NCBI RefSeq assembly: GCF_000377705.1
Contig: NZ_KB898623.1
Span: forward strand, 1 to 64,000
Direction of reading: 5' to 3'
DNA length: 64,000 bases
DNA from: Salsuginibacillus kocurii DSM 18087
GTDB taxonomy: Bacteria; Bacillota; Bacilli; Bacillales; Marinococcaceae
Shown here: positions 41,849 to 44,493 of the stretch, in pieces
Layout of the letters: every line of letters begins with the position of its first letter
Numbering within the stretch: position 1 is the first letter of the stretch
The notes under the pieces: model-generated
Database searches by the model: none
Told to the model about the DNA's origin: nothing
The model's input: the letters and a program-made list of their open reading frames with translations, nothing else
Program-made: the position numbers and the translations under genes

Positions 41849-41876
41849 ATAAAAAACTCCCGCTTAACGCGGGAGT
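41849..41876 (-). terminator. Terminator overlapping the sigG stop codon
   Basis: AACTCCCGC (41855-41863 on the plus strand) pairs with GCGGGAGTT (41868-41876). A U-rich tail follows at 41849-41856. The upstream arm of the stem encodes the last sigG codons (E-L-P-R) and touches the TAA at 41864-41866. Confidence 0.88.
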
Positions 41877-42661
41877 TCATCACTTGTATGTTTATTCATT
41901 TGTTTAATAGCTGATTTTTCCAAACGTGATACTTGAGCCTGAGAAATCCCTATTTCATCGGCTACTTCCATTTGGGTTTTCCCATCGAAAAACCTCATTG
42001 TCACAATGTTTTTTTCGCGATCATTTAGGCGCTCCATTGCTTCATCAAGCGCGATATGTTCAATCCATGAATGATCTTTTTCTTTTTCATCGCGAATCTG
42101 ATCCATCACATAAATGGGGTCTCCCCCATCATTATAAATCGGTTCAAACAATGAAACAGGGTCCTGGATCGCATCTAAAGCGAAAACAATGTCTTCTTTA
42201 GGTATTTCTAAGGCATCTGCAAGCTCCTGGACCGTAGGCTCTCGGTCTTTAATTTTATCGTTCATGAGTTGATCACGCATTTGCAGCGCTTTGTACGCTG
42301 TATCACGTAAGGAACGGGAGACACGGATCGGGTTGTTGTCCCGTAAGTGTCGCCTAATTTCCCCAATAATCATCGGTACTGCGTAAGTGGAAAAGCGGAC
42401 ATTGTGAGATAAATCGAAATTATCAATGGATTTCATAAGGCCAATACAGCCCACCTGGAACAAGTCATCGACATTCTCGCCACGGTGGTTGAATCGTTTG
42501 ATAACACTTAAGACCAACCGTAAATTTCCATTTACGAGTTCTTCCCTTGCTGAATGGTCACCATCCTGAAACGCTGTAAATAACTTTTTCATTTCTTGGT
42601 TTGTTAGGACTGGAAGCGTGGAAGTGTCTACACCGCAAATTTCAACCTTACTACGTGCCAT
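41864..42661 (-). CDS. sigG: Late forespore sigma factor SigG
   Basis: 265 residues. Region 2 (NLRLVLSVIKRFNHRGENVDDLFQ..., FSTYAVPMIIGEIRRHLRDN) and region 4 (LNDREKNIVTMRFFDGKTQMEVADEIGISQAQVSRLEKSA) are clear, and the N-terminus MARSKVEICGVDTSTLPVL is diagnostic for SigG, including the segment bound by anti-sigma factors SpoIIAB and CsfB. The start is ATG 42659-42661 after GGGAGGG; an earlier ATG would add 22 residues with no ribosome site. A sigma-F-type promoter is found at 42741-42769. Confidence 0.96.
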   Translation of the reverse strand: MARSKVEICGVDTSTLPVLTNQEMKKLFTAFQDGDHSAREELVNGNLRLVLSVIKRFNHRGENVDDLFQVGCIGLMKSIDNFDLSHNVRFSTYAVPMIIGEIRRHLRDNNPIRVSRSLRDTAYKALQMRDQLMNDKIKDREPTVQELADALEIPKEDIVFALDAIQDPVSLFEPIYNDGGDPIYVMDQIRDEKEKDHSWIEHIALDEAMERLNDREKNIVTMRFFDGKTQMEVADEIGISQAQVSRLEKSAIKQMNKHTSDELPR

Positions 42662-42859: not shown

Positions 42860-43579
42860 TCATACCATTTTATTAAATTCTTTCTGCAATCTTTTAATAA
42901 TTCGCTTTTCCAGCCTTGAAATATAAGACTGCGAAATACCCAATAAAGTGGCAACATCTTTTTGAGTATGAGGAGGTCCGCCTGCCAGACCGAATCGCAT
43001 CTCCATAATTTGTTTTTCCCTATCATTCAGGCGAGTCATTGCCCGCTTTAGCAAGGACTTGTCTACCTGAAATTCCAAATCTTTTGTAATAATATCGTTT
43101 TCTGTGCCGAGTACATCTGATAACAGCAGTTCATTTCCATCCCAATCTACATTTAACGGTTCATCAAAAGAGATTTCCGAACGCATTTTATTTGTCCGGC
43201 GCAAGTACATTAATATTTCATTTTCAATACAACGTGAAGCATACGTTGCCAGTTTTATTTTCTTTTCAGGATCGAAGGTATTAACAGCTTTAATTAAGCC
43301 AATTGTACCGATACTAATTAAATCTTCAATGTTAATGCCTGTATTTTCAAACTTGCGTGCAATGTATACTACCAGCCGCAAATTCCGTTCAATCAATACA
43401 GAGCGGACGTCTGGATCTCCCTCAGGCAAACGCGCTAACAAATCTTGTTCTTCTTCTTTAGTCAGCGGGGGTGGCAGTGCATCTTTTCCACCAATATAAT
43501 ATATATCATTTTTTCCTGTCTTCAAACGTTGCATCCACTGTTCTACTTTACGGAACCATTTAGTAATCTGGAACTTAAT
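42860..43579 (-). CDS. sigE: Early mother-cell sigma factor SigE (pro-sigma-E), ATT start
   Basis: Read from ATT 43577-43579 the protein has 239 residues, the B. subtilis length. The pro-sequence ([19 protein letters not shown] region) lines up position for position with the B. subtilis propeptide as far as YYIGG. SpoIIGA would cut it near residue 27-29. Region 2 is [26 protein letters not shown] and region 4 is [24 protein letters not shown] lies eight bases before the ATT. Between the in-frame stop at 43595-43597 and codon 16 there is no ATG, GTG, TTG or CTG; starting at the ATG of codon 16 (43534) would remove most of the propeptide. Confidence 0.93.
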
Positions 43580-43599
43580 GATAATAACCCCTTTCTAAG

Positions 43600-44493
43600 T
43601 TAGGATGCTTCTGACCATTCGTCGCAAATTGGAACAATGGCCTGAAAATCTGAATTGGTTGACAAACGTCTTTTCTCTACAGCAATTAATATAGATTCAA
43701 GCTTTATCCAGTTGTTTGCACGCTTAATTCTTGCTGCATCAGGACGTAAGGCTGCGAGTAAACCTTCTTTCGTGCCTACGCTCTGATAAGGAATAAAGCG
43801 GAGCTTGTATGTGTGTTTTGTTTCTTCGGAACACTGGTCAATCGATCCCTCTGCAAGCAACGTTAATTCATTGTATTGCTGTACTGGAAGTACCGCTTTG
43901 AAAGCTTCTAGCTCAAGGATAATAACCGGGGTGTTTGTTATTGGGTCTTTCAAAAGGTTGCCAGAATCAAGCAGTCCTCTTACATGTTGTTTTTTGTTAA
44001 AAAGTTCAATTTCCATATCTACAATATGAGAGGTTTGATGATTTCTTCTTTTTTGTAAATGATTAAGCCAAAGCAGAACACCCGTACCAATACTAAGCGT
44101 TAAGAGCACTACTCCTACATTTAGAGGGAAGGACGAGTCAGGCTCATTTAAGGCTCCTACAGGTTGTCTATACAATGATAGAGTTGAAATAAAACCGCCA
44201 ACTGTAAAACTAACGGCAAAAAAAAGCGTGACCATTTTTAAAAAGAGTGGAAATGGCTGCCTCCCAAAGGCCAATACAACAATACATGCAGCCAACATAA
44301 TATGGCTTGTAAACGATTCAAGATAATGACTATATCCAAGCGGCCAAAGAAAGATACTCAAACTAGATACTCCCGCACTAAAAACGAGACGTTTAAAGCT
44401 AATCGGTTTTTTAATCCAATAACTTGTTATGAGAAGGAGCATGCATGTTATCACTACATTCATTACATACATTACATCCATATAAATGGTCAC
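43600..44493 (-). CDS. spoIIGA: Pro-sigma-E processing protease SpoIIGA
   Basis: 297 residues. About five membrane helices (1-145) precede a cytoplasmic aspartic-protease domain with the active Asp176 in RGLLDSGNLL. SpoIIGA, activated by SpoIIR from the forespore, cleaves pro-sigma-E in the mother cell. The start is GTG 44491-44493 (TIYMDVMYVMN follows), in line with the B. subtilis protein. The gene is 20 bases ahead of sigE, as in all endospore formers. The serine protease gene bpr found upstream in B. subtilis is not here. Confidence 0.93.
   Translation of the reverse strand: MTIYMDVMYVMNVVITCMLLLITSYWIKKPISFKRLVFSAGVSSLSIFLWPLGYSHYLESFTSHIMLAACIVVLAFGRQPFPLFLKMVTLFFAVSFTVGGFISTLSLYRQPVGALNEPDSSFPLNVGVVLLTLSIGTGVLLWLNHLQKRRNHQTSHIVDMEIELFNKKQHVRGLLDSGNLLKDPITNTPVIILELEAFKAVLPVQQYNELTLLAEGSIDQCSEETKHTYKLRFIPYQSVGTKEGLLAALRPDAARIKRANNWIKLESILIAVEKRRLSTNSDFQAIVPICDEWSEAS

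Follow-up and report, generated by a model that had tools for sequence, protein, structure and literature searches.

Candidate near-cognate AUU start codon for pro-sigma-E in Salsuginibacillus kocurii

Where does translation of sigE begin when the start region of the gene offers no canonical start codon? The question is raised by the spoIIGA–sigE–sigG cluster of Salsuginibacillus kocurii, which we analysed in a window of 64,000 nucleotides (nt) (G000:C1:1-64000) from a 3.83 Mb draft genome in 23 contigs. NCBI holds two named species of the genus, S. kocurii and S. halophilus, and a paper on GTDB taxa places Salsuginibacillus in ‘the Marinococcus family’ (PMC10408702); among eight papers listed for Salsuginibacillus, none has a title on sigE. 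Our best reading is that a near-cognate AUU at 43579-43577, behind an extended Shine–Dalgarno (SD) sequence, quite likely starts a 239-residue pro-sigma-E, which is probably kept low relative to SpoIIGA (Table 1). If so, a committed developmental switch would depend for its translation on a naturally very weak start codon, and changing one base would open the ratio of pro-sigma-E to its protease to test. Gene models that begin at the first ATG would lose 15 of the 26 residues preceding YYIGG.

Table 1 Coordinates of the sigE cluster and of its start region
Feature	Position	Strand	Remarks
sigE (pro-sigma-E), read from ATT	42860..43579	minus	239 codons + stop
spoIIGA (pro-sigma-E protease)	43600..44493	minus	297 aa, LLDSGN present
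sigG, 3′ gene of cluster, ATG start	41864..42661	minus	
Candidate start ATT	43577..43579	minus	26 codons 5′ of YYIGG; putative
Shine–Dalgarno AGAAAGGGG	43588..43596	minus	−12.4 kcal/mol, spacing 8 to ATT
Second near-cognate candidate ATC	43580..43582	minus	spacing 5 from SD
First canonical in-frame ATG, codon 16	43532..43534	minus	SD −2.2 kcal/mol
Propeptide region, 26 residues before YYIGG	43502..43579	minus	sequence strongly diverged

The sigE locus and its start region

The sigE product scores 418.2 bits against TIGR02835 (cut-off 348.6) and 420 bits against NF006158 (cut-off 339), which places it within the curated SigE families, and SigG scores 483.7 bits against TIGR02850 (cut-off 457). 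The gene order is the one expected for SigE loci, though SpoIIGA, at 190.4 bits, falls below the curated cut-off of 209.55 for TIGR02854, the sole NCBIfam match of that protein. Other genes of the SigE pathway are also found in the genome, with SpoIIR at 161 bits (cut-off 151.9) and sigK at 352.5 bits (cut-off 298.65). Among the best-scoring hits to the SigE models in the genome, none is a second, normal copy of sigE: the next-best, on contig C6, scores as sigK, two further hits are pieces of that sigK sequence, and one is the sigG of the window.

The sigK sequences have an arrangement of their own. The complete gene lies at the start of contig C6 (L277), and a truncated second copy of its 5′ part ends at ENEILM near GAAAATGA (start of C8, C22 and start of C6 in G000). 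The truncated copy is followed by 10 kb with an IS21 IstB-like open reading frame (ORF) and an integrase-core ORF (C22, locus L276, 10,209 bp), beyond which the region upstream of sigK occurs a second time. The arrangement suggests that part of sigK was duplicated in tandem, with a junction resembling that of skin as generally described. We also considered whether skin had been excised in the cells sequenced, which would have shown sigma-E to be active, and set this aside because a partial tandem duplication of sigK accounts for C8, C22 and C6 better than one locus in two states does.

Read directly on the minus strand, the sigE frame runs TAG(43597-43595) AAA GGG GTT ATT ATC ATT(43579-43577) and continues AAG TTC CAG ATT ACT AAA TGG TTC CGT AAA GTA GAA CAG TGG ATG(43534-43532); the spoIIGA stop TAA (43602-43600) ends 20 nt 5′ of the ATT. 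Direct reading bears out the first-pass annotation on three points: the first ATG, GTG, TTG or CTG after the TAG in this frame is the ATG at 43534-43532, the ATT opens exactly 239 codons (42860-43579 with the stop), and AAAGGGG lies eight bases 5′ of it. Further in-frame near-cognate codons precede the candidate, namely an ATT at 43585-43583 (spacing 1) and an ATC at 43582-43580 (spacing 5).

The SD at 43596-43588 is the only strong one in the start region and stands at a working distance from the ATT. Its energy was computed against what we take to be the Bacillus anti-SD string, which may differ from the 16S of this genome. An equally strong or stronger SD precedes sigE in 91 of 238 orthologues (median −12.1 kcal/mol), among which spacing 7 is the commonest (73) and spacing 8 the second (46). 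In the window, a site of this strength at spacing 4–13 was met at 69 of 18,270 sampled positions (0.4%), and at spacing 7–9 at 26 of them. No canonical start (ATG, GTG, TTG or CTG) was found at a usable distance from the SD in any frame, the first such codon being an out-of-frame ATG 20 nt 3′ of the ATT; this any-frame check rules out that the SD belongs to another ORF. The ATC at spacing 5 shares the SD energy of the ATT, and a start there is less likely. On the same strand, within 43535-43640, CCATTGTTC could form a 9-bp stem with GAACAGTGG that encloses both SD and ATT, and the mRNA fold over 43530-43640 has a z of −2.2.

Start codons of sigE among relatives

The sigE starts were compared across a convenience sample of loci. 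A gene-order search matched 378 of 397 genomes, from which the best 30 loci and 60 more listed places were used; to these were added all 23 host-family matches, all 26 of a second family, 30 of 37 of a third, and the best 80 of 586 named loci. Of 275 loci, 26 were excluded as non-sigE or as repeats of other hits of the window genome or its congener; of the 249 scripted, two could not be parsed (L060, L068), and merging identical ORFs left 239 distinct sigE ORFs. The congener ORF (L009) was merged with an identical one of S. halophilus (L029), and the genus is represented by two genomes. Calls rest on SD energy and position: a start is an ATG, GTG or TTG that lies −36 to −21 codons from YYIGG and is preceded, at spacing 4–13, by an SD no weaker than −4 kcal/mol, a rule blind to starts nearer than −21.

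An SD-supported canonical start was called in 238 of the 239 ORFs, the window gene being the sole exception. These starts are ATG in 170, TTG in 47 and GTG in 21, lie at −32 to −21 in 234 and at −33 to −36 in four, and peak at −26 (130), the position of the window ATT, followed by −27 (53). In 16 of the 239, an SD-supported canonical codon occurs additionally at −20 to −9. In S. halophilus, ATG occupies the very codon that is ATT in the window genome. Comparison of sigE starts in close relatives, as proposed in the first-pass annotation, shows that the position is shared and that the ATT codon is not conserved, being seen in one genome only, with ATG in the congener and a called canonical start in all 238 orthologues. 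A scan of viral contigs for relatives returned three, the best at 60% identity, and found no near strain. One surveyed locus (L245, G413:C1:2287785-2288486) has a sigE with an in-frame TGA and TAG, in a genome 75% complete and 10% contaminated, and is either a pseudogene or poor sequence.

The main rival to the near-cognate codon is an ordinary ATG: G may have been turned into T at 43577 by a base error in the draft or by a mutation that the cultured strain acquired recently. The SD, its spacing, the modal position and the S. halophilus ATG would all fit such a codon and one change would be enough; moreover, the genome is a 23-contig draft, and an error is made more likely by the fact that the finding was singled out in a scan. 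However, the frame and the neighbouring genes are otherwise intact and a single-base error at exactly this codon is improbable a priori, and we regard this explanation as unlikely.

The family of the host has a leaning towards weak starts. At E 1e-90, sigE is found in 23 of its 29 genomes, where it begins with TTG in 19, ATG in two, GTG in one and ATT in one, compared with ATG 168, TTG 28 and GTG 20 among the 216 distinct ORFs from outside the family. The TTG genes share ancestry and therefore represent few events, not 19. The sigG genes at the family loci (23 distinct) begin with GTG in 10, ATG in nine and TTG in two, with two mis-picked by the motif, and at L118 and L123 the called ATG may not be the real start. 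Such frequent non-ATG starts agree with the GTG or TTG reported for sigG in 11 of 15 representative Bacilli (PMC5942855). The sigE and sigG counts make a tuning role more believable than accident, short of proof. The six family genomes in which sigE is absent at E 1e-90 (G013–G017 and G027) are all five of genus g7 and the only one of g11, which suggests that these genera have lost sporulation.

The propeptide and the choice of start

Mature sigma-E of the window is ordinary, with 84.5% identity to S. halophilus. Over the 26 residues preceding YYIGG, identity is 19.2% with S. halophilus and 3.8–19.2% with 21 other family members, which themselves share 19.2–46.2% with S. halophilus, so that the ranges touch. 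Against the 238 orthologues the propeptide has a median of three and a maximum of six identical residues out of 26, compared with a median of 11 for orthologues among themselves; three orthologues (L087, L104 and L105) are equally distant from the rest. The propeptide was said in the first-pass annotation to align residue for residue with pro-sigma-E of Bacillus subtilis, whose extension is 27 residues long (PMC13174948). This does not hold: only three of 26 residues match Bacillus ectoiniformans (L034), the nearest stand-in for B. subtilis, and a hidden Markov model (HMM) aligns the propeptide only with a three-residue insertion. The commonest family residues W12, Y13, K14, G20, K22 and E25 (D here) are missing. 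The propeptide does not follow the family pattern, and only a start at the ATT (or ATC) gives it a normal length.

This divergence bears on the second rival, in which translation starts at the ATG at 43534, the 15 preceding codons are non-coding and decaying, and only 11 residues of propeptide are left. That ATG is the earliest canonical start, and residues 2–15 are unlike the family: on an ungapped profile built from 128 non-redundant propeptides they score −22.4, against a mean of −26.3 for random stop-free translations (P 0.32), and 79% of their shuffles score equally well or better. Over the entire propeptide, profile scores this low occur in about 1.6% of orthologues. Residues 1–15 lift the score of an N-terminal HMM only from 70.2 to 74.3 bits. 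However, the divergence spans residues 16–26 too (profile score −3.0) and thus extends past the ATG. When gaps are allowed, the propeptide as a whole exceeds random window translations (P 0.012; 1,000 random 26-mers, 60 orthologues), though this comparison includes residues after the ATG. The SD of the ATG is just −2.2 kcal/mol, the called start lies at −22 or further in every one of the 238 orthologues, and the strong upstream SD would be left without any canonical start at a usable distance. We consider a start at this ATG quite improbable.

Residues 1–15 also have a strong predicted amphipathic helical moment (P 0.006 against window translations). Helical windows at residues 4–19 were picked post hoc, and a maximum statistic is fairer; the moment is no family trait, with a median 26-mer maximum of 0.504 in orthologues and a null mean of 0.484. 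A frameshift masking a normal propeptide was rejected, as the other two frames of 43501-43600 have median local scores to orthologous propeptides of 13 and 13, against 19 for the ATT frame, and contain stops. Co-divergence of SpoIIGA with the propeptide was likewise rejected: at 26–31% identity to the 21 family members, where S. halophilus has 20–27%, the protein is not special.

Because the propeptide matches the family so poorly, the coding of the residues before the ATG draws its support from signal and position and hardly from sequence. The case for ATT rests on the SD, its spacing, the position and the congener. On this footing, ATT as the start, proposed in the first-pass annotation, remains the best reading (−12.4 kcal/mol, spacing 8, position −26, ATG in S. 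halophilus and no SD-backed canonical alternative), and the interpretation given there is supported in part. Use of both starts, with full-length pro-sigma-E made from the AUU and a shorter version, less bound to membrane and protease, from the AUG, is very improbable: leaky near-cognate initiation could permit internal initiation, and sigR makes two isoforms from two starts (PMC5472188), but the AUG lacks an SD (−2.2 kcal/mol).

Near-cognate initiation and known systems

For the near-cognate start, we propose that initiator tRNA would decode the AUU as formyl-methionine, with the extended SD AGAAAGGGG, at the usual distance, anchoring the 30S subunit there; the pro-sigma-E so made would carry a normal-length propeptide. 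Use of the AUU may keep pro-sigma-E low relative to SpoIIGA, encoded immediately 5′; by analogy with known cases, a lowered yield is probable because AUU starts are inefficient and initiation factor IF3 discriminates against them, and IF3 may act on the sigE AUU in the same way. The infC gene of the same genome reads GGAGGTGGCTC ATT ATT CGT, the two ATT codons standing after GGAGG, and no canonical start was found between its upstream TGA and codon 6; an ATT-only start is expected behaviour for infC, which makes it the positive control of this genome. It is conceivable, and we judge it decidedly unlikely, that pro-sigma-E and IF3 share the AUU as a gate, with mother-cell entry controlled by start-codon fidelity, both proteins rising when IF3 drops relative to 30S subunits at the end of growth, and the AUU as the extreme of the weak sigE starts of the family (TTG in 19 of 23).

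With a start region devoid of canonical start codons, the sigE of the window probably adds a member, in an unusual setting, to the few genes known to use near-cognate starts. The literature searched, from which subscription papers were mostly absent, yielded no previous report of a sporulation sigma factor that starts in this way. Near-cognate starts have been regarded as known mainly from infC, as in the first-pass annotation; this is too narrow in view of the published cases of sigR, cvfC1, ccpN and pncA (PMC5472188, PMC13009471, PMC13398362). For infC itself, reported starts are ATT in Escherichia coli and ATC in Streptomyces (PMC5472188) and AUA in Staphylococcus aureus (PMC13009471). The infC of the window genome, with ATT only, and sigE have in common a near-cognate start and a strong SD. 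In contrast, E. coli infC is homeostatically autoregulated, and sigE is not known to control IF3.

Streptomyces sigR, too, encodes a sigma factor and combines a strong SD with a non-canonical start; that start is GTC and is repressed by IF3, and replacing it with a canonical start leads to overproduction of SigR relative to RsrA and loss of their balance (PMC5472188). The two genes differ in codon (GTC versus ATT) and in partner, which is an anti-sigma factor for SigR and, as suggested here, the protease encoded upstream for sigE. Both the effect and the dependence on IF3 have been demonstrated for sigR (PMC5472188); for the sigE of the window both are proposed by analogy.

Within the Bacillota, S. 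aureus cvfC1 (AUU) and ccpN (AUA) combine near-cognate starts with extended SDs, as we find for sigE, and give about 10% of the AUG yield in poor medium (PMC13009471). Their starts were proven by ribosome profiling and reporters, and that of ccpN is conserved to B. subtilis (PMC13009471), whereas the ATT of sigE is not conserved in the congener. B. subtilis sigG is, like sigE, a sporulation sigma factor gene with restrained translation, which is held down by a canonical weak start and a hairpin at the ribosome-binding site; the account in PMC5942855 involves no near-cognate codon for it. Finally, Borrelia burgdorferi pncA (BBE22) starts with an AUU, supported by biochemistry and structure, that databases had missed, giving a shortened protein (PMC13398362); the likeness to the sigE of the window lies in this missed AUU, and the difference in the product, which for pncA is a metabolic enzyme.
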